Source: Shewanella sp. 10N.286.48.A6
GTDB lineage: Bacteria; Pseudomonadota; Gammaproteobacteria; Enterobacterales; Shewanellaceae
NCBI RefSeq assembly: GCF_002873135.1
Contig: NZ_MCVI01000083.1
Span: 1 to 64,000 of the forward strand
Length of the DNA: 64,000 bases
Direction: 5' to 3'
This document shows positions 9,537 to 36,077 of this stretch, one piece after another. Both the position numbers and the translations under genes were made by a program. The stretch's first letter is position 1, and each line of letters opens with the position of its first letter. Under the pieces are notes generated by a model. That model did not search any database and was not told the DNA's origin. It saw only the letters and a program-made list of their open reading frames with translations.

Positions 9537-9541
9537 GCTAC
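9537..9541 (+). repeat. Left target-site duplication GCTAC
   Basis: GCTAC here is repeated exactly at 36073-36077, immediately outside the inverted ends of the Tn7-like element. A 5-bp duplication is the known signature of Tn7-family transposition. Confidence 0.85.
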
Positions 9542-9606
9542 TGGTAACTGATAATAAAGTTTGTGACTATTTTAATAAAGGTTGTGACCGAAATAGAGAT
9601 TGTGAC
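9542..9606 (+). repeat. Left transposon end with three putative TnsB sites
   Basis: Three direct repeats face inward: AATAAAGTTTGTGAC at 9553-9567, AATAAAGGTTGTGAC at 9574-9588 and AATAGAGATTGTGAC at 9592-9606. They lie 21 and 18 bp apart. The AATAAAG core also occurs in the TnsB sites of canonical Tn7. The terminal bases are TGG, not the TGT of Tn7. Confidence 0.85.
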
Positions 9607-9635
9607 TAACTAAATCAGTTATCAGACGATTAATT

Positions 9636-9667
9636 AAAAAGCGAACCGGTCGGTTCGCTTTTTTTTT
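9636..9667 (+). terminator. Rho-independent terminator inside the left transposon end
   Basis: The stem GCGAACCG / CGGTTCGC has a 2-nt loop and is flanked by an A run before and nine T residues after, so it could act in both directions. It would end the gcvP transcript inside the element and shield the cargo from host read-through. Confidence 0.85.
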
Positions 9668-10264
9668 GCTTAATAATTTACTCTTCAATAACTTCTCAAA
9701 GCCTGTAATTTCCATCCTCTTCCCATTAACAGCTAAATTTAGATTTACAATGAACTTTCAAAGTAAATAGTCTGCATCTTAGTTAGAATAATATTTTGAT
9801 ATAGCTATTGTTGATTTTTAGTATGAATGATTTAAACCTTTGTTCGTTATAAATCACTTTATATCGAATTATGATTTAAAACCCCGTGTTTTATAAATCA
9901 TATGGAGAGGGATTTTGATTTATAAAGTGAAGATGTATAAATCAAATTAATCTTTTTGGGCAGGGTTGAATTATTTAAACGTCCGCTTTGTAGAAATCTT
10001 CAAGTCATTGTAAATGATAGCAACGATCTCTTGATTGCTCATAACTAACTGTCAGATAAAGTCCAAACCTATTCATCGAAACTGTAAGATCAGATATGAG
10101 CTACAACAAATTAGACAAACTATAAAAACGTTTTTATAGTTTGTCTAAATTTTAAATAGATTTCAATGGAGTCTTTAAGGCTAAATTAGGACATCTTAAA
10201 AGTACTTTGTCTGAGTTTTAAATATGCAGACACATTTCGTCATTATTACAAATTTAGTTATGTT
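9668..10264. other. AT-rich non-coding left arm with inverted repeats
   Basis: No credible gene is visible in about 600 bp. It contains four TATAAATCA-type motifs, two of them in an 11-bp inverted repeat (9914-9924 and 9936-9946). It also contains a long perfect palindrome at 10111-10148, annotated separately. The region separates the TnsB sites from the convergent end of the RloC-like gene. Confidence 0.55.
10111..10148. repeat. 38-bp perfect palindrome
   Basis: TTAGACAAACTATAAAAAC is followed immediately by its exact reverse complement, with no loop, giving 19 bp on each arm. It lies about 115 bp beyond the stop of the RloC-like gene. It could be a dimeric-protein operator or a transcript-end hairpin; no T tract follows on the minus strand. 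Confidence 0.8.
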
Positions 10265-12463
10265 CTATACCACCATCATTTTATTGTAATGCTCTTCAAA
10301 GTCAGTCCTGATGAATACATCTTTAAATTTGGTAATAAATCTATCCGAGTCGATCTCCCCTAAATCATTTATATTTACAGAGTCAGAATGTGATTCTCTG
10401 TTAATAAACCTAAAGAAAGGGGAAAATTCAGCATCTGCTTCTTCAAGTGCATCTAGAGCGGCTTTGAGCGCATCTGTTTTATGTACAAAAGAAAAATAAT
10501 ATTCGAGTATATTTCTCATTATGTTAGGTAAAACAATGTTATTAGTACTGCCATTTTGAGCGTCTTTTATAATCTGCCAGTATGACTGGTAATCATTTTT
10601 TATATCACTTCTTCCCATAGGAACAATACTACTATTAGTATTTTTAAGAACTCTAAATAAATTACATTTATTATCAAATTTATCATTACCTGCATTGTCT
10701 TTCCCTTTAGGCAAATACTTTAACATTTCATGCAGATAATAAAGGCTGTGAGTAAGTAATATTACTTGTGCATATTGGTAGCCTCGAATTAATTTTTTAT
10801 GCGTAAGAGCTCCTATCTCATAAATATAATTATGAGATAGGCTTGATATAGGGTCATCAACGACAATAATCTTCTTATTTTTTGGGGTTGAAGAATCACT
10901 GTTTACGCTTCCTTGGCATAGCTCTAAAAAGTAAAGGTAAGTAATAAGTGTTTTTTCACCTTCACTAAGCGATTTATAGACATCATTCCCGCTCGAAGAA
11001 GGACCACGGCAAAGGTAATAATGGTTATTTTCACCTGGCTGTTGTTTGATCTCAAAACCCTCTAAACCTATCGATTTAATTTGATTATTTATGCTAATGA
11101 CCGATGTTTCAATATTGGTGATTTTTTTACGGTTTTCAGCAATAATTTCGTTTTGAGCTTGTATCGCTGAAGTAAGGTCACGTTCTTCTGTTTTAGTCGT
11201 TTTAATATCTGTTTCTATTGATTCAATTAAAGTATCGTGGGCTTTTATTTCAGCATCATACTTAATACGAACCAAAGACCAAAACTTCTTTTTAATTGCG
11301 GTGAGAGATTCTTTTTTCTTTGATAATCTAGCGTTAAATGTTCGTCTAGAAGCATTATGAATATTGATGATATCATTAATTGGTTGTACTAAATCAATAG
11401 TAGATTCCAGGGTGATTTTAATACTTGGATCTGCTAGTTTTTGATTCAGTTTTGTAAGGTTTGCTTGAAGCACACCTGAAAGTTTTTCTTTAGCTAGGTC
11501 GAATTTTGTATCGTTAAGCGTCGTGTAGTGAGTTCCTGATAGTGTCTCGTTTAAAGTTTCAATTGCTTGCTTATATCCACTCTGTAGAATTTTTAACTCA
11601 CTTTTTTTTTCTTCATACGAAACGTCGAAAAGATTGTTAATATTTTCAACTAATTCATTATCAATTGCCTGTTGGCAAAACGGGCATTTTCTCTCAGCAT
11701 CATCGAGATAAATACGTCCATTATCTACCCAAGTTGAGTTTTGGAGTTTATCGACTAACTCAGCTAAATAACTATCACTAGAGCCTACAATTACTTCACT
11801 TAAAATAGTATTTGATTCGCTTGAAGCCAGGTTTAGAGCTACGGTCGGAATCATAGTTTTTGGTACAGCGCTCTTATTATTTAGTTCTTTAGATTCTGTA
11901 GATAAACTTTGAAACGTATATTCAGGTTTTTCAATTAGGGTTGTTTTTAGAAGCTCATCATAAAACGAAGCAGCCGAGCCCTTAAAGCCAACTAAGCAGT
12001 GATCTAAATCTTTTTTGTCATGCTCTTTTTTAATTTCAAAGCATTTGTTTTTAATTGCTTTTACTTGGGTGTTTTTTTTCTCTTCATGTTGAGTGCTAAT
12101 TGTTTGCTTTTGAACTCTTTGTTCTTCTAATGCTTTTATCTCTAATTCTGCTGTGCTTATAGCTTGCTCAGCCGCAACATTAGTCTCCCCTAAAGTAAAT
12201 ACACCCTCGAAGCTATCTTGCGAGAAGTTTTTTTCAACGAAATCAGTATTGTAAACTAAGGTCTCATAATCTTGTGAATTAGGTAACACATAGCTGCAAT
12301 TACTATAGTTAATACGTGTTTTATCCTGAAGGTATCTTGCTACTGTGGATTTCCCCGTGCCGTTATGACCATAAAACAGCACTATTTTCTTATTTGTATT
12401 GAGTGATACAGGGGTAGGGTTTTGAAAACTTGCCACTCCTTGTATAGAAATTGATTCAATCAT
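10265..12463 (-). CDS. RloC/PrrC-like ABC ATPase, putative anticodon nuclease
   Basis: This 732-aa protein has a split ABC ATPase of the AAA_13 type. Walker A (GHNGTGKST) is near residue 33. A long coiled coil carries a zinc-hook-like CPFC in the middle. The signature SLSEGEKT, Walker B (KKIIVVDDPISSL) and H-loop (ILLTHS) follow. The C-terminal part contains R650-x3-E654 and H692 (IMRNILEYYF .. RESHSD), matching the spacing type of the Arg-Glu-His triad of PrrC and RloC anticodon nucleases. The family cleaves tRNA upon phage infection or DNA damage. No restriction-modification genes adjoin, as is usual for RloC. Nuclease activity is inferred from the triad only. Confidence 0.72.
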   Translation of the reverse strand: MIESISIQGVASFQNPTPVSLNTNKKIVLFYGHNGTGKSTVARYLQDKTRINYSNCSYVLPNSQDYETLVYNTDFVEKNFSQDSFEGVFTLGETNVAAEQAISTAELEIKALEEQRVQKQTISTQHEEKKNTQVKAIKNKCFEIKKEHDKKDLDHCLVGFKGSAASFYDELLKTTLIEKPEYTFQSLSTESKELNNKSAVPKTMIPTVALNLASSESNTILSEVIVGSSDSYLAELVDKLQNSTWVDNGRIYLDDAERKCPFCQQAIDNELVENINNLFDVSYEEKKSELKILQSGYKQAIETLNETLSGTHYTTLNDTKFDLAKEKLSGVLQANLTKLNQKLADPSIKITLESTIDLVQPINDIINIHNASRRTFNARLSKKKESLTAIKKKFWSLVRIKYDAEIKAHDTLIESIETDIKTTKTEERDLTSAIQAQNEIIAENRKKITNIETSVISINNQIKSIGLEGFEIKQQPGENNHYYLCRGPSSSGNDVYKSLSEGEKTLITYLYFLELCQGSVNSDSSTPKNKKIIVVDDPISSLSHNYIYEIGALTHKKLIRGYQYAQVILLTHSLYYLHEMLKYLPKGKDNAGNDKFDNKCNLFRVLKNTNSSIVPMGRSDIKNDYQSYWQIIKDAQNGSTNNIVLPNIMRNILEYYFSFVHKTDALKAALDALEEADAEFSPFFRFINRESHSDSVNINDLGEIDSDRFITKFKDVFIRTDFEEHYNKMMVV

Positions 12464-12993: not shown

Positions 12994-13824
12994 ATGAGCA
13001 AAGTAAAAAGAAGAACTGAGGTAACAGTAAACAAAGAAACTGTTACAAAATTGAATAAATGGAAGAAGGATCTTCTTGAAAAATACCGACCTTATCTTAC
13101 CGTGCGAGATGTTAATCAAATTGGTCGACGTCATTGGTTATTTTGTCCTATTCAAAAGCGGCATGTACACCTGCTATCAGACGGTGAATACCGAACCTAT
13201 AAGAAGATCCTTTCATCTAAAAGTGTTGTAAAAATTGAAGAGCAGTATGCTCTTGATATTGATGAGACGCTTGATATTGCTATAGCTTTAAATGCAATTC
13301 ACCCACGTGATTGGGAAACGAATTTAGGTTATGTAATGACAACTGACTTTGTTGTTACATATAGAAATAAAAGTGGCTCAACATACCGTGTCGCATACAC
13401 TTTTAAGTACTGGGAGCAAATTTATGAAGAAGTAGATGCTAAGGTAAAAAAAATCAAACCTCGTACATGGCAGAAGTTTGATATCGAGCGGCAATATTGG
13501 AAAGCAAGAGGTGTTGATTATCGTGTGCTTACCGAGCGAGATGCCACAAAGGCTGAAGCATGGAATTTTGATTACTTCGAATTAGCGTATGATTTTGTGG
13601 CTTCAAAAAGTGAGCTAACTGAATTTGCTATTGGATTTGTTGAAGCTTGGTTGTTAGCACCACACAATTGGTTGCAAGATCATTTTAGGACGTTAGAAGT
13701 TAAAACTGGTAAGTCTTTTCAGCATATCCAGAGCCTTTTTCAGTATATGGGGTTGCATAATTTACTACCTATCAATTGTGATAAACATATTCGGTTGTTC
13801 CGCCCAGTGGAGCTCGAATTATGA
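12994..13824 (+). CDS. tnsA: Tn7-like TnsA endonuclease
   Basis: This 276-aa TnsA protein makes the 5'-strand cuts at the transposon ends that allow cut-and-paste transposition. The N-terminal half carries the restriction-enzyme-like core: an acidic residue before YRTYKKIL, then TTDFVVTY (catalytic Asp), then a Lys in VAYTFKYWEQ. The C-terminal half is the helical domain (FAIGFVEAWLLAPHN). The length matches Tn7 TnsA (273 aa). It overlaps tnsB by 4 bp (ATGA), the usual coupling, and is the first gene of a seven-gene run on the plus strand. Confidence 0.9.
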   Translation: MSKVKRRTEVTVNKETVTKLNKWKKDLLEKYRPYLTVRDVNQIGRRHWLFCPIQKRHVHLLSDGEYRTYKKILSSKSVVKIEEQYALDIDETLDIAIALNAIHPRDWETNLGYVMTTDFVVTYRNKSGSTYRVAYTFKYWEQIYEEVDAKVKKIKPRTWQKFDIERQYWKARGVDYRVLTERDATKAEAWNFDYFELAYDFVASKSELTEFAIGFVEAWLLAPHNWLQDHFRTLEVKTGKSFQHIQSLFQYMGLHNLLPINCDKHIRLFRPVELEL

Positions 13825-16091
13825 TTTATGTAGGTCAATTGATTAAAGTTACTAACCCTCAGCAAGAACTCTTAGTTTGTCATGTGAGCCTTGATTATCG
13901 CTTCGCTGCCGTTGCAGATGCTAAACATGTTAGTAGTAAGGATAACTTTTCTAAACCTAAACCCTGGAAAGTAACAGACTTAGTAGCTCTTATACGTAAA
14001 AAAGGCGTTGAATCTGAGCAGTTTGATTATCCAGGAGAGATGTCCTTTAGTGATAAAGAGCTTATTAAACAGAAGCGTGAGACATGGCTCATTAATCGGG
14101 ATTGGAAGCACTGGTTAACTGCACCTTTAACGACTCCTGAGCTAATTAATCAATATATCTATGGTGACGGTGTTGCTGATGAGCTTGAGGAACTGATTAA
14201 AAGTAATTTAGCTAACGCTGATTTACTAAAAGCTAAATTACTTAAGGTTAATTCCGATAAGAAGAAAGAGGTATGGACAACAAAAGGCGCTTATTACAAT
14301 GCCTTGAATCGTTATATTGTCTTTGGTTGTCATCCTAATGCATTGTTGCCCTGTAAGCTTAAAAATTCTGGCAGTAATTATAAAGTCCCTCTAAAAATTG
14401 AAGATAGAAATATTAAAAGAGGCCGTAAACCCGTTAGACAGGCAAGGATTTCAGCCCCTAATATTGGTATTACTGCTGAGCACAAAAGCAATATTGCGAA
14501 GCTAGTTAAATTTTTAAAGTCTGAAAAAGGTAAAAAAGAATATCCTAACTTTACTTTTAAGAAAGCGATTGAGCTTTATCAGTTTAACTTTGAAACAACC
14601 ATTCTAGAACGGGAAATTGAAGGTGAAATTCACCAAATTAGAATTCCGTTCGAAAGAGAAGAAGACTGCTTATCTGAAGAGCAGGTTTATTATCATTTAA
14701 AACGCATTATTGATAAACAGTTATACCTTCAAATTAAACACGGAAATATTAGTTACGAAAAAGATTTCGCTGATAGACAAGGCTCTGCATTAGAGGGGGT
14801 TATCGGATCAACTTATCGCTATGAAATTGATGCTACTGTACTTGATGTTTATGTGAGATATCCATTCGATACTACAGGCCAATACAGTATGGGGCGTCCT
14901 GTCCTTTATTTAGTTATTGATGTTTACTCAACAATGATTGTTGGGTTCTATTTAGGGTTTGATGGACCTAATTGGGAAGGGGCAGCACAAGCTTTAGTTA
15001 ATGCTTGCTCATGTAAAGTTGAATTTGCTGCACGGTTTAATTACTCAATAACTGAGGATGATTGGCCAGCTCATCACGTTCCAGTGCAAGCAGCAGTAGA
15101 TAATGGAACTGAGCAGCCCGATAAAGTGATTAGTACCGTCTTGCAGGCTGAGCTTGGTATTCGAGGTTATAGCTTTGCAGCTGTTTACAGAGGGGATGCA
15201 AAAGGTACAGTAGAAGGCGCTTTCAGGTGCTTAGAAAATAAAGGGGTTCACTTTATTCCAGGAGCTTTAAATCAACATGCCCAGCGTGGAGATCAACATG
15301 CGTCTCAGCAGGCACTTCTTGATTACGACTCAATAAATATACAGTTAATAGACCTAATCATTAAGAATAATAAATCAGCAGATAGACTTCACCGATTTGA
15401 TATTAATGCGATTCAATCAGGTATTGATATCACACCAGAAGCCCTTTTTCTGCATGGACTAAAGCAAGAAATGAATGGTGGAAGAGATGGTCGTGAAATA
15501 GCCCCTGGCCGTATCCATTGGGCTTTTCTTCCTGAGGAAGAAGCAACTGTCAGAGGGGACGGGATCTACTTTAAAGGTTTAGTGTACTTATCCGATTATG
15601 CAAAAGAAGCTGACTGGTTCAAAGTTGCCAACCTAAATGGTTCTTTCAAGATTATTGTTAAGAGACCTAAATCTTGGACTTCAAGTTTGTGGCATAAAAC
15701 GGCAGACGGTCAATATATTCGTTTCGACTTGAAAAATGTTAACAACGGTAGCCCTTTTATTGGCCAGCATTGGGAGCCAGTACAGCATTTATTAGAGCAG
15801 TTTAAAGATAAACGGCATCAAAATAAGCTAAATACTAAAAAGCTGACAATCCAAAGAAACAACTTATTAGCCGAGCTTAAGCGATTAAATGAGGATGCCA
15901 TCGAAGGTGCTGATACAAACACTTCTAAAAGCGTGCAAAGAGATATTAAGCAGCGCCAAAAGGTATTCGTTGCCGTTCAGCATGTAATCAAAGCAATTGA
16001 CCATCAATTGGCTTTGCAGGGCGATCTTTTATCGCAAGCACCTACCCAAATTCAACCTCAATTAGATTCTGACAACGATGCGTTGTTATAG
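13821..16091 (+). CDS. tnsB: Tn7-like TnsB transposase (DDE)
   Basis: This 756-aa transposase has a retroviral-integrase fold with D337 (YEIDATVLDVY), D427 (AAVDNGTEQ) and E465 (GDAKGTVEGAF), the typical TnsB spacing. The N-terminal 330 residues include HTH-type DNA-binding regions. The C-terminal tail (PTQIQPQLDSDNDALL) is the likely TnsC-contact segment. It would bind the repeats at 9553-9606 and 35937-36061 and make the 3'-end cuts and joins. Tn7 TnsB has 702 aa, so this is a complete protein. tnsC follows 8 bp later. Confidence 0.93.
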   Translation: MIYVGQLIKVTNPQQELLVCHVSLDYRFAAVADAKHVSSKDNFSKPKPWKVTDLVALIRKKGVESEQFDYPGEMSFSDKELIKQKRETWLINRDWKHWLTAPLTTPELINQYIYGDGVADELEELIKSNLANADLLKAKLLKVNSDKKKEVWTTKGAYYNALNRYIVFGCHPNALLPCKLKNSGSNYKVPLKIEDRNIKRGRKPVRQARISAPNIGITAEHKSNIAKLVKFLKSEKGKKEYPNFTFKKAIELYQFNFETTILEREIEGEIHQIRIPFEREEDCLSEEQVYYHLKRIIDKQLYLQIKHGNISYEKDFADRQGSALEGVIGSTYRYEIDATVLDVYVRYPFDTTGQYSMGRPVLYLVIDVYSTMIVGFYLGFDGPNWEGAAQALVNACSCKVEFAARFNYSITEDDWPAHHVPVQAAVDNGTEQPDKVISTVLQAELGIRGYSFAAVYRGDAKGTVEGAFRCLENKGVHFIPGALNQHAQRGDQHASQQALLDYDSINIQLIDLIIKNNKSADRLHRFDINAIQSGIDITPEALFLHGLKQEMNGGRDGREIAPGRIHWAFLPEEEATVRGDGIYFKGLVYLSDYAKEADWFKVANLNGSFKIIVKRPKSWTSSLWHKTADGQYIRFDLKNVNNGSPFIGQHWEPVQHLLEQFKDKRHQNKLNTKKLTIQRNNLLAELKRLNEDAIEGADTNTSKSVQRDIKQRQKVFVAVQHVIKAIDHQLALQGDLLSQAPTQIQPQLDSDNDALL

Positions 16092-16099
16092 GAGACATC

Positions 16100-17551
16100 A
16101 TGTTATTACCTGCAAGTTATAATAAGCACCTTGATTTAAATTTAAATAATAATCCTTTGTCGGAATCGATTCAGATTGAGCTATCGAATGAGAAGCTGAT
16201 TGATTCATTAACAATTTTACCCAATGCTCAGGAGAATTTTTGGCAGCTACCTGAAGTTTATCAAATGTCGCAACTCAGACAATTATCAGTTGTTAATTCA
16301 CCTCATCCTTATACCCAGGCTTTATATAATAAAATCATGAGTCTGAAGCTTTTTGGTTATGTTCATAGGAACCCATTCTCAGCGGACACAGTAAAAATAC
16401 ATACCAATATTTCACACTCATTACGTGAAAAAAAACTGTATAAACCTGAAAACTACCCTGGGTTAGCTCCTACAACAGCACCGTCTGTTCTTGTCTCAGG
16501 TGAATCAGGAAGTGGTAAAACTACGTTGATCAGAAGTGTACTAAGCAAGACTCCACAAGCTGTACAGCATAGCAGCTATAAGGGAACCCCTTTTAATAAA
16601 AAGCAATTGAATTGGTTATCGATTGATATGCCGGCTACAGGCTCCCCTAAAGCTTTGTGTGCTAATTTTTTTAAAGCGGTAGATGATGTACTTGGTACTG
16701 AGCATAAAAAAGAATGGGTAGATAAAAATAAATTTGGTGCTGATGTTATGTTTGGCGCTGTTCAACATGTAGCGATGAAGCATTTCTTAGGCTTAATTCA
16801 CATTGATGAATTACAATTTATTTTAGGCTATAAAAAAGCTGAACATAGCCCTTCATTGCAATTACTGGAAAGCTTATTTAATAAAATCGGCATTCCCGTT
16901 ATTTTAAGCTGTACCCGGCAAGGTGTTGATTTGTTTCAAACACTCAAAGAGGATGACCATCGTATAGGACATGATATTACTATTGTTAGACGTATGCTTA
17001 GCGATAGACAATTCGTCCTTGGTTTAAATAAGTTTGATTCTAAACATTTTAATACCCTGTTTAATGCTTTATTTCCCAGTGAATTCATATTAGATAATAA
17101 TCCTACTCGCTTCGAAGAGTTTCGATCTGAATTTCATCGATTATCATGTGGGCTTCCTGCCATTATGACTCGCTTAGCGCTTTTGCATCATGAAGCAGTG
17201 CAGCATGATTTTAATAAAGTCACCGACCAATCAAAAGGTTTCACAACACTCAGCCCTGAATTATTAAGAGTTGTTTATGATCAGCAATTTAGTTTGATTG
17301 ATCCTGCGTTAATTGCTTTGAGGAAGCACAACGCTGAAAAGTTTGAATCTTTAATACGTGATAAGTCGACTAAAAAACCTACCTATTCTAATAGCGAAAA
17401 GCTTGAAGCTGAAAATGTAGCTAAGTTACAACAAAGCAACCCTACAAAAGTTTTGAAAACAGATGATAATTCAAAAGGCACAGTTGCTAGCGTATCTAGT
17501 GACTTGTCTTCTGATGAATTTTTACAGGGGATAGGTAACGATGAACAATAA
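16100..17551 (+). CDS. tnsC: Tn7-like TnsC AAA+ ATPase
   Basis: This 483-aa AAA+ regulator bridges target selector and TnsAB. Walker A GESGSGKTT spans residues 134-142, and Walker B HIDEL has D236-E237. A sensor-1-type Thr/Arg follows in ILSCTRQG. The start is fixed by GGAG seven bases upstream of the ATG at 16100. The last 11 bp overlap the first tniQ gene. Its role, known from Tn7, is to form filaments on target DNA chosen by TniQ/TnsD and to activate the transposase. Confidence 0.92.
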   Translation: MLLPASYNKHLDLNLNNNPLSESIQIELSNEKLIDSLTILPNAQENFWQLPEVYQMSQLRQLSVVNSPHPYTQALYNKIMSLKLFGYVHRNPFSADTVKIHTNISHSLREKKLYKPENYPGLAPTTAPSVLVSGESGSGKTTLIRSVLSKTPQAVQHSSYKGTPFNKKQLNWLSIDMPATGSPKALCANFFKAVDDVLGTEHKKEWVDKNKFGADVMFGAVQHVAMKHFLGLIHIDELQFILGYKKAEHSPSLQLLESLFNKIGIPVILSCTRQGVDLFQTLKEDDHRIGHDITIVRRMLSDRQFVLGLNKFDSKHFNTLFNALFPSEFILDNNPTRFEEFRSEFHRLSCGLPAIMTRLALLHHEAVQHDFNKVTDQSKGFTTLSPELLRVVYDQQFSLIDPALIALRKHNAEKFESLIRDKSTKKPTYSNSEKLEAENVAKLQQSNPTKVLKTDDNSKGTVASVSSDLSSDEFLQGIGNDEQ

Positions 17552-18521
17552 TGTTGAGTTGCCGTATTTATTCCCTAACGAGCATTTGCTAAGTGTCTTG
17601 GCTCGGTGGTTTGATTTAACAGGGCGAAATGATTTTTTGATGACTTGCAAAAAAGTATCGTCAAACCTGACAAAATTAACGCCTTCAGCAGTTTGGCGTC
17701 CTGTTTTTCGTGATTTAGCTAGTCATTATAAAGAGACTATGCCGCTTGAGGTTATACTTAAAGAACATACTCTACTTCCTTATTATCGCTCATTCTTAAC
17801 ATCAACAGAACTTGGGTTGTTTAATGATGAACTATTAAATAGCGGGGAGAGTTTCAAGTTGCTGCCTAAGTTACAGCAAAACCTTAAGCATGCTCATTAT
17901 TGGCGGTGGTGTAAGCAATGTGCTCATGATGATTATCAAGAATATGGTACGACCTATTGGCATACCAACCACCAAGTTCCAACACTGCTTAAATGCTATA
18001 AACACGGCTGCGCCCTACAAACAACTTGCGCTGACTGCGGCTTTAATTTTCAAACATTTCAAAGATTCTGGTTACCGCATCATGACGGGTTGTGTCCTGC
18101 TTGTAATAGTGTGTGGGTAGCAAAAGAGTTACCCACTTCAGTATTGATTAATTGGATTGAATCTATAAGTTTATATCTTCAACAAAATACCTCCGCTGTT
18201 CCCGTTGAATCACTTATTGGCTTGATGAAGCGTCACTTTGGTTTTGATTCTTTTCCTAGAAATCTTCCTTTATCTTTACGTAAAGATGTTACTAATATGC
18301 AGCTGGACTTTAACCAATGGCTTAATGATGGCGTCATAGAGGCATATTTTAATCGAGATAAGCTATCGATATTAAAACCAAACCAAAAGTTATTAAATAT
18401 TGTCACTACGGTTTTTCGAGGTAACAAGGTTCCACCTATTAGTCTGTTACTAATGCTCAAGTCTCTTGGCTTAGAACATGAGTTTTTGAAATTGGTGATG
18501 GGAGATGAGCCCGATGAATAA
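17541..18521 (+). CDS. tniQ: TniQ-family target selector (short form)
   Basis: This 326-aa protein has the TniQ start LPYLFPNEHLLSVLARWFDLTG. A zinc-ribbon region follows: WRWCKQCAHDDYQEYGTTYWH, then HQVPTLLKCYKHGCAL, CADC and CPAC, enough Cys/His for one or two zinc sites. It is much shorter than Tn7 TnsD (508 aa) and lacks the long C-terminal HTH extension. It overlaps tnsC by 11 bp and the next tniQ by 8 bp. Having two TniQ proteins suggests division of labour between site-specific and alternative targets. Which one recognises gcvP cannot be told from sequence. Confidence 0.87.
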   Translation: MNNNVELPYLFPNEHLLSVLARWFDLTGRNDFLMTCKKVSSNLTKLTPSAVWRPVFRDLASHYKETMPLEVILKEHTLLPYYRSFLTSTELGLFNDELLNSGESFKLLPKLQQNLKHAHYWRWCKQCAHDDYQEYGTTYWHTNHQVPTLLKCYKHGCALQTTCADCGFNFQTFQRFWLPHHDGLCPACNSVWVAKELPTSVLINWIESISLYLQQNTSAVPVESLIGLMKRHFGFDSFPRNLPLSLRKDVTNMQLDFNQWLNDGVIEAYFNRDKLSILKPNQKLLNIVTTVFRGNKVPPISLLLMLKSLGLEHEFLKLVMGDEPDE

Positions 18522-22979: not shown

Positions 22980-23018
22980 GTTTTCTAAAATTTATTTTGA
23001 ATTTAGTAGATAATAATA

Positions 23019-23046
23019 TATAGTGGCTACAAATGTATAGTGCCTA
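23019..23046. promoter_or_regulatory. Direct repeat in the divergent WYL/Toprim promoter region
   Basis: TATAGTGGCTA (23019-23029) and TATAGTGCCTA (23036-23046) are 17 bp apart, start to start, in the short gap between the divergent WYL regulator and the defence-like operon. They are candidate regulator sites; this is inference from position only. Confidence 0.45.
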
Positions 23047-23060
23047 TTAATAAACACTAA

Positions 23061-26736: not shown

Positions 26737-28093
26737 TCGAGATGTTTTAATCCATGCAATTATCAAGCATCAAAATGTATTTTTAAGATTGCTTGATCAT
26801 ATTGCATTAAATGATGGTGCCAATGAGGTACCAGAGAGCCTTTATTTACAGTTGTACAACAATGTTATTTGTAAAGACTCTGATGAGAAAGTACATAGTT
26901 ACCTAAGTATTGAATCGTTGAGTGAGAATGGTGTTTTTATTCATAACGATCCGAATACAGGTCAGATTACGCTTGAAAGAGTTATTGTTGATTTACTAAG
27001 TTTTTTAGATGTAAAAAGGGCTAGAGAGCTAGACCATGCAGAATTTGAAAATATTCGCGTTGCTATTGTTGCCGCTTGTGAACAAATTAAAAAGTATGAA
27101 ATTAGTTCAATCGATTATAAAGAAGCTAAAGGTACATTTAATCGATTGATGAGTGATATACATTCTAAGATAAAAGAGAATGTTTTAGCTCTGACCCACC
27201 AAGTTGATAGTATTGCTTTAGAGTATAAGTCATATGACCAAGGCGATAATGCCGTTAATGTTATAGAGCTTTATAACAAAGTTTCAAAACTTTATAGCCG
27301 TTATGTAATGCCATGTTATGACTTCATTAACCCTTCGATGGAAATGGCGCAAACACAAAGTTTCTCTATGGCGGTTGATGGATTAATTTCACATTATAAG
27401 AGTGAATTAAACCTTTATGATGAAGCAACGTTGGTTCAATTTAGAAAGAAAGCGATTACTAGCTATTACAAAGATATAGGTGTCTTAGTACGGAAACTCG
27501 ATCAATACTCAAATCACTTAAGCCAAGATCGTAGTTTCTATTTATCAATTGAAAGTGCTTTCTCACACCTTATGGAAAGTATTGAGCCGCTAAGGCACGG
27601 ACTAAAAAGGAATATTTATTTAACTAGTAAATCTGAAGTGTTTAACAATCATACGGCTCTAGATGGCCTTACAAGGCTAAAATCTAAATTTAAACCAAAG
27701 TTACAATGGCACGCAAATAAAACTAGATTACGTTTCAAAGAGTATTTATTAACCGTCAATGAAACTTCTTTTAAAAAAAAGGATCGTCAACTTAAGCCTT
27801 TAGCAGTTGAGTGTAATGTAAGCGATGAGCGAAAGCAGGTTATTAGCTTTATCATTGATAAGTTTGATGAGACTAAATCCTTACCAGATGTTCACCAGTT
27901 TTTATATAGCGAGCTAAGTAAAGCACTTTCTGACTTTGAACTCTCAGATGTTCTGTACGGCTTAGAAGTTTTTTTACCTTTCTATAGCGGGGCTGAGCGG
28001 AGTTTTCCTATCAAAAAAAAGCAAATAAATGATGAAATTCATTATTTGGAGTATGTACAGTTGAGTTATTCAGGGAGTACTGAAAATGTATGA
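26726..28093 (+). CDS. Kleisin-like subunit, JetA/MksF-like
   Basis: This helix-rich protein of about 455 aa follows the SMC ATPase and precedes an MksE-like gene, the position of the kleisin in MksBEF and Wadjet operons. The N-terminal region (LIHAIIKHQNVFLRLLDHIAL, IERVIVDLLSFLDV) looks like a winged-helix dimerisation part. The middle is coiled and helical (about 130-300), and the C-terminus could cap the SMC head. I use the GTG at 26726, which has GGAG nine bases upstream; a TTG at 26711 is the alternative. Assignment rests on context and general composition, not a recognised motif. Confidence 0.62.
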   Translation: MKLNRDVLIHAIIKHQNVFLRLLDHIALNDGANEVPESLYLQLYNNVICKDSDEKVHSYLSIESLSENGVFIHNDPNTGQITLERVIVDLLSFLDVKRARELDHAEFENIRVAIVAACEQIKKYEISSIDYKEAKGTFNRLMSDIHSKIKENVLALTHQVDSIALEYKSYDQGDNAVNVIELYNKVSKLYSRYVMPCYDFINPSMEMAQTQSFSMAVDGLISHYKSELNLYDEATLVQFRKKAITSYYKDIGVLVRKLDQYSNHLSQDRSFYLSIESAFSHLMESIEPLRHGLKRNIYLTSKSEVFNNHTALDGLTRLKSKFKPKLQWHANKTRLRFKEYLLTVNETSFKKKDRQLKPLAVECNVSDERKQVISFIIDKFDETKSLPDVHQFLYSELSKALSDFELSDVLYGLEVFLPFYSGAERSFPIKKKQINDEIHYLEYVQLSYSGSTENV

Positions 28094-28634
28094 TAAACAG
28101 TTAAGTAAAGAAATTTTTGATCAACTTACAAACGGTAAAGTAATAAATAAAACCATTCTTAATAATGCTGGTGAATTTGTTGAAAACCACTTGTTTAATG
28201 AAGTTATGGGAAATTTGAAGGATTATCGGCAGCAATATGAAATGTCTGGTTGTGACTTCGTAGAATCACCGACATTCATATTCATTAGAGACTTAGCGAG
28301 CAATCAAGAAGACTTAAAAACTGATGTTACGATGAAAGCATGCGTGTTGTTGCTGTTGATAGGCAAGTACATTACTGAAAACAATTATCGGATAACTAAA
28401 TTAACTGAATCGTCAGGTGGGCTTACAGAAGCAGATATTGAAGCCATTGAACAAATGGATGATACAAGAGAAGTGTTAGAAAGATCTTCAATTAAAAATG
28501 GTTTTAGTAGTGCAATAAAAAATATCTTAATTGACCGCAATATATTGCTGAAAAAAACTAGCGTTAATGCTTATTTATTATCTGATGCAGGTAAAGCATT
28601 TTTCGATGAAATATCAGAGCGCTTTCAAAAATAA
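28086..28634 (+). CDS. MksE/JetB-like subunit
   Basis: This 182-aa protein overlaps the kleisin-like gene by 8 bp. Its features fit the tandem winged-helix KITE-type subunit MksE/JetB: an opening IFDQLTNGKVINKTILN, an internal helix pair, and a C-terminal winged-helix-like segment (SSAIKNILIDRNILLKKTSVNAYLLSDAGKAFFDEI) reminiscent of MukE and MksE. The size is right for the family (about 180-230 aa). Identification is by size, order and this C-terminal pattern. Confidence 0.62.
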   Translation: MYDKQLSKEIFDQLTNGKVINKTILNNAGEFVENHLFNEVMGNLKDYRQQYEMSGCDFVESPTFIFIRDLASNQEDLKTDVTMKACVLLLLIGKYITENNYRITKLTESSGGLTEADIEAIEQMDDTREVLERSSIKNGFSSAIKNILIDRNILLKKTSVNAYLLSDAGKAFFDEISERFQK

Positions 28635-29113: not shown

Positions 29114-29470
29114 ATGGATATTCTTAGTGCATCTATTTTATCAGGACTTATTTATGACGGTGTAAAGGGGGGAGCTGTTATAGGGTTTGATATGTTAAAG
29201 TCAAAATTAAAGGACTGGCTTATTGATGACTCACAAATAGAAAAAATAACCGAGTACCTTCAAGAAGCTGGTGTAAATGAAGATCTAGCACCCCATGCGA
29301 TAGAAAGAAAGATAGGTGAACATCAAGGTTTACTGGAGTTATTGAGTAATATTAAAGCTTCAGAAAATACAGTTGTTGTTGAGCAAACATCCAATATAGG
29401 TCACAACATAAATAGCATGGGCAGTGGAAATATTTCTGTAGGTAATATAGTTAATTCAAAGGATTCATAG
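29114..29470 (+). CDS. GapS6a-like small protein
   Basis: This 118-aa protein has a strong ribosome site (TAGGAGG eight bases before ATG). The N-terminal segment MDILSASILSGLIYDGVKGG, then LKSKLKDWLIDD, resembles the first protein of the two-gene anti-phage system I know as GAPS6. The C-terminal 35 residues (TVVVEQTSNIGHNINSMGSG) form a beta-rich, Asn/Gly-rich stretch. A similar stretch recurs at the start of the next protein. Only 3 bp separate the two genes, so they almost certainly act together. The family assignment is from memory of sequence style and should be checked. Confidence 0.55.
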   Translation: MDILSASILSGLIYDGVKGGAVIGFDMLKSKLKDWLIDDSQIEKITEYLQEAGVNEDLAPHAIERKIGEHQGLLELLSNIKASENTVVVEQTSNIGHNINSMGSGNISVGNIVNSKDS

Positions 29471-29473
29471 TAG

Positions 29474-32400
29474 ATGGGGGATTCTATTGTAACCCAAACG
29501 TCGGGTGTAGGTCATATTATCAATGCAGCTGAAAATGCGAATGTATCGATAGGTGATTTAAATATTACTAGTTTATCTTCTAGTGATTTACTTACTTTCA
29601 CGAAGCAATTACTTAAATTTATTACATATCGTGATTGGGTTATGGTTAAAGCATACATAGCTAGCCTTAAGTCTTTGGGATCTTTAGATGATGAATGTAA
29701 CTCACTCATTGAAATTTTGGAGTTCAGGTTTTTTCAATTAACTGGTGCTAATACAGATATAGATCCGGATTTATTTATAGATTTATTGCGTAGCCCTCGT
29801 TCAGTGAGCTTAGTTAAAGATGTTGTAGAGTCTATTTGCATTCATCACCTTTCTATTGAATCAAAAGATAATGCTAAAAACAGGTATGTTAACTCTAGTC
29901 ATAAAGGCAGCTTTTCATTCGAGGTCTTTTATGAACTGATTGCTGATAGTAAAGATTTAGATGCAATATTAGAAGGTGGAATATCAGAATTTCTTGAGCA
30001 TGAATTATGCTCATTAGTTCGATGTGCCATTAGGTGTAAGAATTTTGAAATAGCAACACAGCTTTCGAAAGCTATGTTTAATAAATACAAAAATATTAAT
30101 AGTGAAATACTATTTTCACTTTCTTTAGCATATGAGCTATATGAAGAAATTGATGGAAAGCACTATTGGCTTATTAATCATGATGTCATGGAGACGTTAG
30201 AGGAAAGAATTAGTCATTGCATATGTTTGTATAAAGAAAACTCGGATAAGCGAATAGTTCAAATAGCAGCAGTTTTATTAGCATCCACTTGGTTTCAAGC
30301 TGTTGGGTTGAGAGATATTTGCGTTGATAATATTGAAGAAGCAGAAAAGGTTACCCCTAATATACGGGACTTTATATCTCTAAATAAGGAAGAAGATAAC
30401 AACATTGTTTCGATAAAGGATATGTTGAATAAAGATGAATTAGCAATAAGTGAACAAGAGTTTACTAAGATATCTTCAGCATTCATCGAAGGCAATTTAA
30501 ATGAACGGCAAATCAAAAAATGGATTAATAGTGGCGGGAAGGTTACCTCGACAAGCGATGTTGCCGAAGAATTTATCCAAATAATTTTAAACTCAATGGT
30601 TTGTAGTAACGATGACCGCCAACATAAGTTTGATTTATCTAAAAGGCTAGAGTCGTTTATTGAGGTCAACCAAAACACTCTCAGTGAGCTAAATATTCAT
30701 GCAATTTATGAGCTCTCTTTGAATCTCTATCGCATAGACCTATCATTACATGTAGTTAAATTAGTAGAGCCTTTAATACATATTAATCCTTGGGCATCTC
30801 CAATTGTTGATATTTATGCACAATCTTTATTGGCATCTGATCAATTAGGAAAATTGGATGAATTGTTAACAAATATTAGTAAAGATAGTTTTCGGTTACT
30901 CGCTGTTAGAATTGAACGAGCACATATTTCTAATGACTTTAAAAGAGCAATTTCATTAGCAAATATTGGAGTTAGTAAGTACAAAAAGTCATGTTTTTAT
31001 TGGTCTCATTTACTTAGAGCTTATTATGCCGAAAACTTAGAGCTCGATAAAACTCAAATTGTTGTTTCTAGAATCCCCAAAGAAATTATCAATGAGTTTA
31101 GTTTTGATGGTCTTAACTTAATTCATTTAATTGCTAAGACTGACTTGAGTTTAGCTGAATCTGTAATTTTGGAATGGTTTATTGATGATCCTGTAGGTGT
31201 AGCCACTCACCTAACTAACCTTCATTTTAATAACTTGAAAAGAGACAGTAATCATACTAAGAACGTATACCCCTCGAAGAGGTGTTCAACAGCTTTTGTT
31301 TATACAAAAGGGGGAAGAACATTCACAAAATTATTAGTTGATGATTGTAAAGCAAGTGAATACCTACTAAACCCTGAAAGTCCATTGGGGGAACTGTTAA
31401 ATGACCTGGAAGTAGGGGAAGAAGCTAAAGAAGGGATATCGACTATAAAGCTAATTGAAAAACTACCGGCAATTGTCGGAGCATTTAGGATTTCTACCAA
31501 TATTCGAGATGATATAAACCCTGGAGATGATTGTTTTTATTCACTATCCATAAATGAAGATGATGGTGTTGAAGGAATGCTAAAGCAAATTGATTCAATT
31601 TCTCAAGAAAAACAAACAATCGAACATGAAATTGATGGGAAGGCTATACCAATTCTTATGAGGCTTAAGCACTCACATGAAGCTGATATAGTAAAAGGAG
31701 CTTTCATCTACTTATGTGATGGTACTAGCAATAAGTCACTTAGTCTTTTCTCAGAAGGTAAGGTTGTTGATGATGCTGTTATTCTTGACGTTCTTTCATT
31801 AGCTTATTTTTGTTTGACAGGTTTAAGCAAGGGGTTAATGAAAGCAGGTGTTAAAGTTTATGTCACCAAAGAGACTCATGACTTGGTTAATTTTTGGTTG
31901 GATGATATGGGCAGAGTAGATTTTTTGTCTATAGCTAAAGTTGGTGATGAATTTATAAAAACAACGGCAAATGACATTGCAAAAGACAGCAATATTAGTA
32001 ATCTAAAAGAGCTTATTGAAAGTTGTGAAGTATTGATACCTTCAAGCTTAAATATGCCAGAAATGTTAGCAAGTTTGAAAGATGTTGTTGATATATGTCA
32101 CTATAGCTCCCTTAAAGCTTCTATCTCCCATTCTATTCCATTCTGTTGTGTAGATCCTGCTTTCTGTCAGCTTTATACTCAACTGGATGTTATTTTAGCG
32201 GATGTATATAAGTTGGCTGTTGATGCAAAATCGGCGTCTAAATCAACAAACCTTTCTTTGGCTGAGTGCAATATACAGTTTAACTTGCCTGTACCCCTTT
32301 CTCATCAAGATGTTATTGAACTTTGCTCTAAAGAAGGCAAAGGACAATATTTAGCATCGGAGGTTATCAAGAAATATCCAGAAGGTTATTCTTCTTCTGA

Positions 32401-32740
32401 AAATGCCCTTTATGTACTTACTAATATTTGCCTTAAGTCAATTAGCTCAGCTTATTTAGGTTTAAAGGGAAGGTTTGATTTATCTGATTGGAAATATACA
32501 GAGCATATTGTATATGCTTGTTCTAGTTCATCGATGAGATCTCTGAAAGGTGATACCTGTGAAAAAAGGCTAGCTTTACTCATATATCACGTACTAGAAA
32601 GCTTTGAAACAATGGAGGACGTGACAAAATTTACTTTAACTTTCTTCAGGAGGTTTGTGCATGGACACTTTCTTGATGTAAAACAAATAGATCTTGAATT
32701 GAACGTTTTAAAGGATTCTAAAAAGGATTCAAAAAGTTAA
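29474..32740 (+). CDS. GapS6b-like protein with helical repeats and PIN-like C-terminal domain
   Basis: This 1,088-aa protein begins with a short beta motif (IVTQTSGVGHIINAAEN) like the end of its upstream partner. About 600 residues of helical, TPR-like repeats follow (VVKLVEPLIHINPWASPIVDIYAQSLLASDQ and similar). Near residues 755-900 lies a region with VVDDAVILDVLSLAYFCLTGL, YVTKETHDLVNFWL and CVDPAFCQL, spaced like the acidic residues of a PIN ribonuclease. This agrees with a toxin-type effector in a two-component anti-phage system such as GAPS6. Nuclease activity is inferred. Confidence 0.6.
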   Translation: MGDSIVTQTSGVGHIINAAENANVSIGDLNITSLSSSDLLTFTKQLLKFITYRDWVMVKAYIASLKSLGSLDDECNSLIEILEFRFFQLTGANTDIDPDLFIDLLRSPRSVSLVKDVVESICIHHLSIESKDNAKNRYVNSSHKGSFSFEVFYELIADSKDLDAILEGGISEFLEHELCSLVRCAIRCKNFEIATQLSKAMFNKYKNINSEILFSLSLAYELYEEIDGKHYWLINHDVMETLEERISHCICLYKENSDKRIVQIAAVLLASTWFQAVGLRDICVDNIEEAEKVTPNIRDFISLNKEEDNNIVSIKDMLNKDELAISEQEFTKISSAFIEGNLNERQIKKWINSGGKVTSTSDVAEEFIQIILNSMVCSNDDRQHKFDLSKRLESFIEVNQNTLSELNIHAIYELSLNLYRIDLSLHVVKLVEPLIHINPWASPIVDIYAQSLLASDQLGKLDELLTNISKDSFRLLAVRIERAHISNDFKRAISLANIGVSKYKKSCFYWSHLLRAYYAENLELDKTQIVVSRIPKEIINEFSFDGLNLIHLIAKTDLSLAESVILEWFIDDPVGVATHLTNLHFNNLKRDSNHTKNVYPSKRCSTAFVYTKGGRTFTKLLVDDCKASEYLLNPESPLGELLNDLEVGEEAKEGISTIKLIEKLPAIVGAFRISTNIRDDINPGDDCFYSLSINEDDGVEGMLKQIDSISQEKQTIEHEIDGKAIPILMRLKHSHEADIVKGAFIYLCDGTSNKSLSLFSEGKVVDDAVILDVLSLAYFCLTGLSKGLMKAGVKVYVTKETHDLVNFWLDDMGRVDFLSIAKVGDEFIKTTANDIAKDSNISNLKELIESCEVLIPSSLNMPEMLASLKDVVDICHYSSLKASISHSIPFCCVDPAFCQLYTQLDVILADVYKLAVDAKSASKSTNLSLAECNIQFNLPVPLSHQDVIELCSKEGKGQYLASEVIKKYPEGYSSSENALYVLTNICLKSISSAYLGLKGRFDLSDWKYTEHIVYACSSSSMRSLKGDTCEKRLALLIYHVLESFETMEDVTKFTLTFFRRFVHGHFLDVKQIDLELNVLKDSKKDSKS

Positions 32741-33401: not shown

Positions 33402-33440
33402 AAGGACTAGGAAGTTGTTGACTTCCTAGTCCTTTATTTT
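33402..33440 (+). terminator. 14-bp hairpin between SMP-like and hicA-like genes
   Basis: A perfect 14-bp stem (AAGGACTAGGAAGT / ACTTCCTAGTCCTT) has a TGTTG loop and is followed by TATTTT. It ends five bases before the hicA-like start codon, which has no visible Shine-Dalgarno sequence. It may be a terminator, or an attenuator controlling the next gene. Confidence 0.75.
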
Positions 33441-33444
33441 GATT

Positions 33445-33660
33445 ATGTCCGCATACAGTAAAGATAAAGAAATTAGTAAGCTGGTAAAACACTTAATTAA
33501 ATCTGGTTGGGTGTTCAAACAAGGAAAGAAGCACGGCTTAATATATGCGCCTAAAGGTGGTCGCATTGCAGTTCCTTGTACGCCGAGTGATAGACGATCA
33601 CATCTTAACTTTAAACGAAACCTTAAAAGAATTATGACAATGGAAGTTGATTATGCTTAA
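33445..33660 (+). CDS. HicA-like (YcfA) putative mRNA interferase
   Basis: This 71-aa dsRNA-binding-type protein has the HicA pattern: SKLVKHLIKSGWVFKQGKKHGLIYAPKGGRIAVPCTPSD, then HLNFKRNLKRIM. The catalytic-type His lies in GKKHG (family usually GSHH). HicA toxins cleave mRNA and are normally paired with HicB. No HicB follows; instead the frame overlaps an ankyrin-repeat gene by 8 bp. I start at ATG 33445; an upstream in-frame TTG at 33439 has no support. Confidence 0.75.
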   Translation: MSAYSKDKEISKLVKHLIKSGWVFKQGKKHGLIYAPKGGRIAVPCTPSDRRSHLNFKRNLKRIMTMEVDYA

Positions 33661-35917
33661 AGAAAAGCGCCAACCATTTATGACACCTGTTGAAATAGTA
33701 CGCATTATCGCGAGTGCAATAGGAATTAAAGCATCGAATAAGCAGCTAGATACTTTTGCTTTCAAATATGACCAACCCTACACCTTAGCTTCAAGTTTAT
33801 TCAAAGAATCTATTTCAGTTCCTCTTTCTAAGTTCATCAATAACGACTTCTCTAAAAAATTAGAAGCTAAATTTGAATCAATGATGCGGGACTATATTGA
33901 ATTGGTTAACTCAACTCCTATGGACGGTATAACCAGAGTTGAGACTGAAGCAATTCTTGCCCGGTGGATCCTCGATACTGTTGCTGTTGAATTCAATCTT
34001 TTTATGGGAAAAGTAATTGAAGGGCCAAATTATTTAATGAGAGATAACCTTCACCCTAATGGGATCACCCAGGCGTTTGATTGGTTATCTTCAAATGTTG
34101 AGTGGTGGGATAGCTTTCTTAAATTTATTCCAAAAGAAAAACGTCATCGCTTCAAGCTTTGGAAAAGTAATGATGAACTGCCAAAGCTATCTAATATAAC
34201 AAATATTCCAGATTATCTTCCTAATTCTGAAGTTGAGGGGCATGAATGGGAAAAAATTAAAGTTGTTATTTTAGCAGCCCGTTTTATCGATAATTTACAG
34301 CGAAATTATACCGATATTTACCCTGAAAAATTAGTCAATGTTGCTGTACTGGGCTTAAGTCAAGTTGAGCAATATATATGGCATTTGAAGAGTAACAATC
34401 AAGATTGGCTAAAACCGCTAGGGGAGCAGGGGTTAGAGATTGATTACATTTTTTATAAAAAGGATAAAAATAAAGGGCTCTCTGATGCAGAGCGAAAACA
34501 ACGCTCAAAAACGTTGATTGACGAGCTTGAAGCCTCAACATTTAAGTATTCCAAATTTAATATGGGGTATTGGCTGAACTGGTATCGTGCTCGATGGCAT
34601 GCTCTGAATGGTGAGCTTAAAGAAGCAAATAGCCATTTTAAAACAACGTTTGAACAAGCTTTATTTTTTGCAGGTCCATCGATGCCTGAAATTATAAAAG
34701 AAGCCCTTAGTATTGCTTCTAGCCTTAAACCTACACCAGATAAAGCTTTCATTAAGAGGTTGAAAAACTCTGCAATCCTATTTGGTATTGATATACCTTT
34801 GCATAAGGAAGATCAAAGCCAATTAGAAGCTAATCGCTTTGATAGTGTAGTTGAGGATTGGGAATTAAAATTATATGCAGCAACATTTCAAAAACACTTT
34901 CCATCGACTTTACAGTTCAATGTAAGTTCCTCAAATGAAGCGCAACGGATAGGACCATTACTAGGTACTTTTGAGCAAAGCATTAAGCCAAACTTCCGAA
35001 GCCCAAATAAAAAAATAGTGGTTGGGGATACCTGGGGTAAGCAGGTGCCTCAAATAGTCTACTTTTCATGGATGAATTGCGTGGAAATAGTGTCTCAGTT
35101 GATTAATAAAGGTGTAAATGTAAATGCACTATCTGATTCCGATGAATCTGCATTGCTTTTTTCTATCTTGCAAATGGATGTACTGGATCATGGTTCAAGC
35201 ATGGACGATAGGCTATTCAAGCTAATAAGCTCTATTAAGCATCGTGAAAGTGTTGTTAATACGAAAACATCCAAAAAAGAACTATTACCTCTAGTCTGTG
35301 CTGTGGATACTGGCAGGCCAGAAGTAGTAGTAAAGGTTATAGAGATGGGAGCTAACGTTAACTTAAGAGGGAATACTGATAAACAATCTGCACTCTTTGC
35401 AACACTATCTAGGATTGGAATGATAAAAAGGCCTGATGTCAGTAGGGAGTTGATAAAAAACCACCCTTTAAATAATGAACTATTAGATACTATTAGGAGG
35501 CATTCCAACGGCCTTATGGGCGCTACGTTGGATGAAGTTAAAAGAAATTATGAGAGGCAATTACAAGATCCTTTGTTTAAAAAATTTACAGACTCTGGGC
35601 ATAACTTGATAGTAGACAGAGTAAAAGAGTTTATGACACTAGGTAACATGAGAGAAATCGCTAAGCTACTTATTCATTCTGGTGCTGACGCTAATGCTCG
35701 TCATAAAACCAGAATTAATGGGTTTACACCTTTGATGCTTGCGGCTGAGCTAGATGAAGTTGAACTGTTTGAAGCTATGATTTTGCATGATGGAGACCCT
35801 AAATTAACTTCTGAACATCCTGAAACAGGGAGACCATTAGATTGTAGATATATTGCTTTTGCTCATCAATCAAATCAAGTATTAAGGTACTTAGCCTCCC
35901 AACAGAAAAGGGCATAA
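33653..35917 (+). CDS. Large protein with C-terminal ankyrin repeats
   Basis: This protein of about 754 aa overlaps the HicA-like gene by 8 bp and ends 19 bp before the innermost right-end TnsB site. The first 430 residues are helical and not recognised. From about residue 470, ankyrin-type units appear: CVEIVSQLINKGVNVNALSDSDESALLF, RPEVVVKVIEMGANVNLRGN, MREIAKLLIHSGADANARHKTRINGFTPLMLAAELDEVELFEAMI. Ankyrins usually mediate protein contacts, so this may bind or neutralise the HicA-like protein. That is inference from the overlap. Confidence 0.72.
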   Translation: MLKEKRQPFMTPVEIVRIIASAIGIKASNKQLDTFAFKYDQPYTLASSLFKESISVPLSKFINNDFSKKLEAKFESMMRDYIELVNSTPMDGITRVETEAILARWILDTVAVEFNLFMGKVIEGPNYLMRDNLHPNGITQAFDWLSSNVEWWDSFLKFIPKEKRHRFKLWKSNDELPKLSNITNIPDYLPNSEVEGHEWEKIKVVILAARFIDNLQRNYTDIYPEKLVNVAVLGLSQVEQYIWHLKSNNQDWLKPLGEQGLEIDYIFYKKDKNKGLSDAERKQRSKTLIDELEASTFKYSKFNMGYWLNWYRARWHALNGELKEANSHFKTTFEQALFFAGPSMPEIIKEALSIASSLKPTPDKAFIKRLKNSAILFGIDIPLHKEDQSQLEANRFDSVVEDWELKLYAATFQKHFPSTLQFNVSSSNEAQRIGPLLGTFEQSIKPNFRSPNKKIVVGDTWGKQVPQIVYFSWMNCVEIVSQLINKGVNVNALSDSDESALLFSILQMDVLDHGSSMDDRLFKLISSIKHRESVVNTKTSKKELLPLVCAVDTGRPEVVVKVIEMGANVNLRGNTDKQSALFATLSRIGMIKRPDVSRELIKNHPLNNELLDTIRRHSNGLMGATLDEVKRNYERQLQDPLFKKFTDSGHNLIVDRVKEFMTLGNMREIAKLLIHSGADANARHKTRINGFTPLMLAAELDEVELFEAMILHDGDPKLTSEHPETGRPLDCRYIAFAHQSNQVLRYLASQQKRA

Positions 35918-35936
35918 GCGTAATATCGATTTATTG

Positions 35937-36072
35937 GTCACAAACTTTATTAAATAACAGAGCGAATTTATTTTAAATGAAGAAGTTTAGTCACAGACTT
36001 TATTAAAGGTAAGTGTAAAAATTAGCTTTAAAATTTAGCCGCTGTAGTCACAATCTTTATTACCGCTAACCA
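35937..36072 (-). repeat. Right transposon end with three putative TnsB sites
   Basis: The reverse complements of the left-end repeats occur as GTCACAAACTTTATT (35937-35951), GTCACAGACTTTATT (35990-36004) and GTCACAATCTTTATT (36047-36061). Spacings of 53 and 57 bp contrast with the tight left-end array, an asymmetry also known for Tn7 ends. The terminus is ..ACCGCTAACCA at 36072. Confidence 0.85.
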
Positions 36073-36077
36073 GCTAC
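36073..36077 (+). repeat. Right target-site duplication GCTAC
   Basis: Exact copy of the GCTAC at 9537-9541. It marks the right boundary of the Tn7-like element and the return to host DNA. Confidence 0.85.

Follow-up and report, generated by a model that had tools for sequence, protein, structure and literature searches.

The 3' end of gcvP as an apparent and recurrent attachment site for TnsD-carrying Tn7-like transposons in Shewanella and its relatives

Does the 3' end of gcvP, the gene for glycine dehydrogenase, serve as an attachment site for Tn7-like transposons, and if so, by which protein would it be recognized? This question is raised by a 64,000-nucleotide stretch of Shewanella sp. 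10N.286.48.A6 (contig NZ_MCVI01000083.1, positions 1 to 64,000; here referred to as the window), in which gcvP is followed by a complete Tn7-like element of 26,531 bp (9542-36072) with the gene order tnsA-tnsB-tnsC-tniQ-tnsD. The findings described below point to a protein-guided transposon that very probably homes to gcvP by means of its TnsD protein, binding being deduced from position and kinship. The gcvP attachment site appears to be both real and recurrent, and is undescribed as far as our literature searches reach.

The gcvP stop codon was found to be followed by 8 bp, the pentanucleotide GCTAC and then the left terminus of the element (TGGTAACTGATAATAAAGTTTGTGAC); the right terminus, read inward (TGGTTAGCGGTAATAAAGATTGTGAC), abuts a second GCTAC. 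The element has TG/CA termini and, at each end, three 15-bp TnsB-type repeats that represent putative TnsB sites. The repeat AATAAAGNNTGTGAC, allowing at most one mismatch, occurs seven times in the window compared with 0.20 expected occurrences, a number reached in none of 100 shuffles. Six of the seven copies are located at the ends, on the plus strand at the left and on the minus strand at the right (Table 1), and the seventh (10738) lies within a cargo gene. A single operon encodes TnsA, TnsB, TnsC and TniQ-family selectors; the tnsB product had no family match in Pfam or NCBIfam and was matched to the solved Tn7 TnsB (7pik). This gene content, the TG/CA ends with multiple TnsB-type repeats, and the 5-bp duplication with its continuous empty site (see below) place the element among the Tn7-like transposons. 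A first-pass annotation of the window had already proposed the duplication, the matched inverted ends with three repeats each, the tns gene set and the 8-bp distance to the stop codon, all of which were recovered here. Its remark that a terminal TGG is unusual did not hold: verified elements start with TGA, TGT or TGG, and the near-identical element of Colwellia psychrerythraea ND2E starts with TGATAAC, so that the TGG terminus was discarded as a special trait.

The same annotation had predicted a continuous gcvP junction in a close relative lacking the element, and such an empty site was identified in a genome of the same genus (locus L081 of genome G265), the gcvP protein of which is 96% identical to that of the window; the nearest named relatives of the latter are from Shewanella (90%). 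In L081 the gcvP stop codon is followed by AGATAATG and GCTACTTGG, with no intervening element. Over its first 60 bases, the right flank of L081 agrees fully with that of the window, and the joined window flanks match L081 at 315 of 339 aligned positions. Near-copies of the element were observed after gcvP in other hosts. In C. psychrerythraea ND2E, the left end starts 10 bp past the gcvP stop codon. Across 6963 bp, its tns operon shares 97.5% identity with that of the window, while the gcvP DNA itself shows just 72% over 1448 aligned bp. In a member of another family (G074), one contig end carries gcvP together with the left end, the first cargo gene and the beginning of tnsA, and tniQ (interrupted by the contig end) and tnsD are found at the end of another contig, the encoded TnsD being 94% identical.

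To establish how frequently such insertions occur, 394 genomes of the host's order were surveyed, 271 of which were found to contain gcvP. A TnsD profile search returned matches in 49 of the 394 genomes (E<=1e-10), and placement was assessed for the best 32 matches (E up to 1.4e-60, 31 genomes). Twenty-one of these are located downstream of gcvP on the same strand, ten are located elsewhere and one is undecided. TnsD and gcvP share a contig in G000, G050, G078, G083, G088 (two TnsD genes), G107, G128, G131, G143, G169, G186, G205, G212, G256, G337, G359, G368 and G409, and in G004 and G074 placement is based on the left end at gcvP and the remainder of the element, distributed over two contigs. 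In G359 and G368, TnsD is encoded 29 and 38 kb from gcvP, respectively, so that a second element may lie between them. The relatives away from gcvP are those of G008, G064, G165, G175, G219, G229, G336, G363, G381 and G426, the last being so counted since its TnsD is not on the gcvP contig, which continues for 76 kb; the undecided case is G102, the gcvP contig of which stops soon after the gene. The gcvP-sited relatives represent eight coded families (f1, f2, f6, f9, f16, f20, f21 and f25) besides Colwellia. Among 30 Shewanella genomes examined, nine exhibited paired end repeats directly after the gcvP stop codon. In a class-wide sample of 369 genomes, six had a TnsD match at 1e-40, including three from outside the order (G452, G601 and G773), for which no gcvP was present in the fetched stretches. 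Among plasmids, 225 records matched, every one at less than 60% identity.

Target duplications were sought in 19 elements by requiring a left-end TG, a matching inverted end and the same 5 bp on both sides. Exact duplications were obtained for ten (the window, G004, G078, G083, G128, G169, G186, G205, G256 and G409), and closer inspection revealed an eleventh (GTTTG in G088); for the remaining eight, no right end was found within the fetched stretches. The expectation of the first-pass annotation that related elements lie just downstream of gcvP with 5-bp duplications was borne out for the 21 gcvP-sited matches and 11 exact duplications, and not for the ten matches located elsewhere or the undecided one. 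Neither of the two refuting outcomes that it had named came about: most relatives, if not all, are at gcvP, and the empty site is continuous. The ten 5-mers of the initial search are mutually different, and G088 shares its 5-mer with G186, suggesting that the insertion point itself is not read.

In 26 of 28 left ends, the element begins 54-59 bp after the start of the R codon of the gcvP motif GDRNLxCxC. This list of ends omits G367 (the end of which does not start with TG) and the G102 remnant, and ends for which no duplication had been verified were positioned by eye at a TG. Among the ten verified cases, the motif distance ranges from 55 to 59 bp (sd 1.17), compared with 5 to 13 bp (sd 2.46) for the distance to the stop codon, and the length of the gene's tail is correlated with the stop distance (r=-0.94, permutation p 3.5e-4). 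When base conservation was aligned at the left end, a jitter of 1-2 bp blurred the signal, and the result was not used. A nearly constant motif distance combined with a varying stop distance suggests that TnsD reads the coding sequence of gcvP, as Tn7 TnsD does that of glmS.

The TnsD protein itself is consistent with such a role. By sequence, Tn7 TnsD (8glu) is its sole near full-profile relative in the PDB (8.3e-32). When its predicted model (mean pLDDT 85.9) was compared with the PDB, Tn7 TnsD ranked first (E 2.3e-9), with the N-terminal part aligned and TM values of 0.74 (target length) and 0.50 (query length). The zinc-finger CCCH residues C128, C131, C156 and H159, corresponding to a motif described for TnsD in PMC2918618, are invariant in 33 TnsD rows, and the combination of a TniQ domain, this zinc finger and a C-terminal extension would assign the protein to the Tn7 TnsD family. 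In a TnsD phylogeny, clade I (17 rows; support 99/97) comprises 15 gcvP-sited members, the undecided G102 and G219, which is sited elsewhere, and clade II (support 100/99) is gcvP-sited in seven of seven cases, with other-site rows positioned between the two. Site labels, with G426 carried as unknown, change four times on this tree, whereas shuffles gave 11.3 changes and none of 500 had as few, and a single gcvP clade was not rejected (p 0.24).

Four clade I elements (G050, G143, G212 and G359) carry TAGACAAAC repeats at their ends, and their TnsB proteins group with non-gcvP rows. Forcing these elements together with clade I was rejected on TnsB (p 1.1e-4) and TnsC (p 0.003) and not rejected on the short TniQ (p 0.08), while forcing their TnsD together with other-site rows was rejected (p 4e-8); as the groups for these approximately unbiased tests were named after the trees had been seen, the p-values are lenient, and several branches are long. 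G074 was not included in the TnsB, TnsC and TniQ trees. That one TnsD clade is associated with two dissimilar TnsABC cores indicates that the selector has probably been exchanged between transposase cores.

A hairpin followed by a T run is present past the right duplication in the window, G078, G083, G128, G169, G205 and G409, and the corresponding flank in G004 resembles that of its genus. In G088, G186 and G256, further left-end-type repeats occur directly past the right duplication, and these are read as tandem elements. In G088 (L027-L029), at least two tns operons and three sets of end repeats are stacked downstream of gcvP, with the second TnsD encoded 46 kb away. A tandem arrangement was also seen away from gcvP, in G219 (contig C12, L218 ~14959 to L219 ~1710), where a second set of ends follows 4-5 bp on. 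In G019 (L071 349-1096), the 3' end of gcvP is present twice: the full copy has its native flank, and a second fragment ~330 bp on, 97% identical over the 349 bp compared, bears a transposon left end. Intrinsic terminators were detected within 250 bp inside the left end in 17 of 21 elements, compared with 34 of 623 interior windows; the four elements lacking such a call constitute the TAGACAAAC group, where the repeat region is palindromic in itself and is followed by T. The terminator of the element may replace that of gcvP, presumably displaced by the insertion. Taken together, we consider it likely that the gcvP specificity of TnsD is a portable module, one clade of which has moved between non-sister TnsB/TnsC cores with different ends, that gcvP represents a distinct, order-wide Tn7-type site, and that the elements so formed are rivals for a mark ~58 bp past the coding motif and stack there.

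Several observations weigh against a TnsD-directed origin of every such insertion, or temper its support. Two gcvP-sited elements depart from the distance rule (G050, 91 bp; G131, 168 bp), the p-value of the tail-length correlation is generous owing to near-copies and related elements among the cases, and the gcvP motif would be conserved in any event on account of protein function. G219 encodes an open 486-aa TnsD within clade I, yet is located away from gcvP. Moreover, five of the nine Shewanella genomes with end repeats after gcvP lack a TnsD match (G012, G040, G051, G330 and G367), and in G012 (L068, L069) no tns gene was found in 39 kb beyond the left-end repeats, suggesting that some of these are remnants or carriers of other selectors. 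The genes beyond the G012 repeats encode luciferase-like, LysR, ArsP, LRR and TonB-receptor proteins.

In the mechanism that we propose, TnsD would bind the conserved 3' coding part of gcvP, most likely the codons of GDRNLxCxC, and, via TnsC, steer TnsAB-mediated insertion to a point ~58 bp further on in one orientation. This point would lie between the gcvP stop codon and the gcvP terminator, leaving gcvP intact, and the element would supply its own terminator just inside its gcvP-proximal end. The short TniQ may serve a second target route, and the element is presumably active at present.

It is conceivable that gcvP is read by the short TniQ instead of TnsD, either alone or with an unseen partner. 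An open reading frame (ORF) for this protein was present in 21 of 21 gcvP rows examined (broken in G359, at 185 aa; G074 was not in the set) and in only one of eight non-gcvP relatives (G165). However, the short TniQ has no sizeable C-terminal extension, the feature by which direct target readers are usually marked in the dual loci described in PMC10293859, and in the TniQ tree the TAGACAAAC-end elements join the non-gcvP G165 (98/98), as does their TnsB, whereas TnsD places them clearly in clade I. We consequently regard a TniQ-based reading of gcvP as quite unlikely.

That the region past gcvP is a mere tolerated hotspot, occupied by chance landing or inheritance without targeting, might be argued from other rearrangements near gcvP in G019 and G426 and from the ten of the 32 best TnsD relatives that are located elsewhere. 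This appears very unlikely in view of the near-copies at gcvP in hosts with a much diverged gcvP, the narrow motif distance, the differing duplicated 5-mers and the link with TnsD kinship. RNA-guided insertion, with guide or Cas genes lost or acting in trans, might be envisaged since type I-F3 CRISPR-associated transposons (CASTs) are common in Shewanella, chiefly at rsmJ (PMC12452197). It was rejected as extremely improbable: neither hallmark of a CAST was found, no Cas family being detected by Pfam among the 17 element proteins scanned and no CRISPR-like array among direct repeats; the intact TnsD also counts against RNA guidance. Homing to gcvP via TnsD accordingly remains the preferred reading.

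Table 1. Positions of the element, its target and its cargo in the window.
Feature	Coordinates	Strand	Basis or remark
gcvP, glycine dehydrogenase	6625..9528	+	Pfam GDC-P 4.8e-189; last codons presumed target, by motif distances
Left GCTAC of target duplication	9537..9541		Single copy in empty site L081
Left (gcvP-proximal) end	9542..9606	+	TG terminus; TnsB-type repeats at 9553, 9574, 9592
Intrinsic terminator inside left end	9636..9667	+	Points away from gcvP; role presumed
Cargo AAA_13 ATPase	10265..12463	-	PADLOC candidate system PDC-S06, 2.1e-252
tnsA	12994..13824	+	Pfam Tn7_TnsA-like_N 9.3e-16
tnsB, transposase	13821..16091	+	Tn7 TnsB 7pik 1.7e-36
tnsC, AAA+ regulator	16100..17551	+	Pfam AAA_22 and TniB
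Short tniQ, 326 aa	17541..18521	+	Pfam TniQ 5.3e-10
tnsD, 483 aa, presumed gcvP selector	18505..19956	+	Pfam TniQ 1.2e-15, TnsD 2.6e-19; Tn7 TnsD nearest (profile, fold)
Cargo short ORF	20169..20480	+	Partial LMWPc match, 3.1e-6
Cargo Tle1-like catalytic domain protein	20599..22092	-	4.7e-21
Cargo WYL regulator (-) and Wadjet/Mks-like four-gene operon (+)	22158..28634		WYL, MksE, weak JetD; putative assignment
Cargo GapS6-type pair, HetE-N protein and GapS6b	29114..32740	+	Family matches
Cargo ankyrin-repeat protein	33647..35917	+	Family match
Right end	35937..36072	-	CA terminus; TnsB-type repeats at 35937, 35990, 36047
Right GCTAC of target duplication	36073..36077		Matches left copy
Hairpin then T run	36235..36261	+	Presumably displaced gcvP terminator, from sequence

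The cargo (Table 1) is probably in part of the anti-phage type, comprising the PDC-S06 ATPase, the Wadjet/Mks-like operon with its WYL regulator and the GapS6 pair; according to PMC8649781, defence genes are enriched among the cargo of Tn7-like elements. The Wadjet/Mks-like operon resembles a divergent member of its type (MksE 7.5e-13, JetD merely 5.4e-6). Its 960-aa and 460-aa gene products had no firm family in family scans; in the PDB, the 460-aa protein had no sequence match and the 960-aa protein a single weak one, which was taken as chance. The GapS6b match of the GapS6-type pair scored 1042 bits. The tns operon and the defence genes lie on either side of the gene for the Tle1-like protein. 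Outside the element, a 6S RNA gene is located on the minus strand of the window (115-297).

If the proposed homing is correct, gcvP would join the small number of chromosomal sites at which Tn7 relatives are known to land by protein recognition, and TnsD clades that share a target while riding on different transposase cores constitute a natural experiment on DNA reading and TnsC coupling. Given the presence of gcvP in 271 of the 394 genomes, the site might come to serve as a mild point of insertion in marine bacteria.

The first-pass annotation had suspected an undescribed attachment-site class, and no gcvP attachment site for Tn7-like elements was found in the literature searched, supplements being out of reach; the string gcv is absent from the main text of PMC10293859, PMC8649781, PMC11406308, PMC6360697 and PMC12452197. 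The sites named in PMC11406308 include glmS, tRNA genes, parE, guaC, yciA, ffs, rsmJ, comM and yhiN. Among these systems, the TniQ-targeted Tn7017-type elements (parE) and Tn6230 (yhiN) resemble the present element in having a (presumed) protein-guided site past a gene, and differ in their target genes and, in the case of Tn7017, in being a CAST. The Shewanella type I-F3 CASTs (PMC12452197) share with it the genus, a Tn7-like core, an insertion point beyond the end of a gene and defence cargo, whereas they are RNA-guided and mostly found at rsmJ, and no Cas genes or array were found here. Dual TniQ-TnsD elements, for which PMC10293859 reports 998 loci, likewise combine a small TniQ with a TnsD exceeding 400 aa; that report mentions few examples suggesting tniQ/tnsD exchange between transposons, in contrast to the TnsD clade on unlike cores described here. 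With Tn7 itself, the element shares TnsA, TnsB, TnsC and TnsD, TG/CA ends with several TnsB-type sites, a 5-bp duplication and insertion just beyond the stop codon of a conserved gene. It differs from Tn7 proper in its target (gcvP, not glmS), its second, short TniQ and its end repeats, and TnsE had no Pfam match among the 17 element proteins, a scan that did not extend to overlapping antisense ORFs. The geometry is nevertheless similar: Tn7 TnsD, as described in PMC2918618, covers positions +23 to +58 of attTn7, which lie within glmS, and insertion occurs ~20 bp beyond the stop codon; here the gcvP motif starts ~58 bp from the element end.

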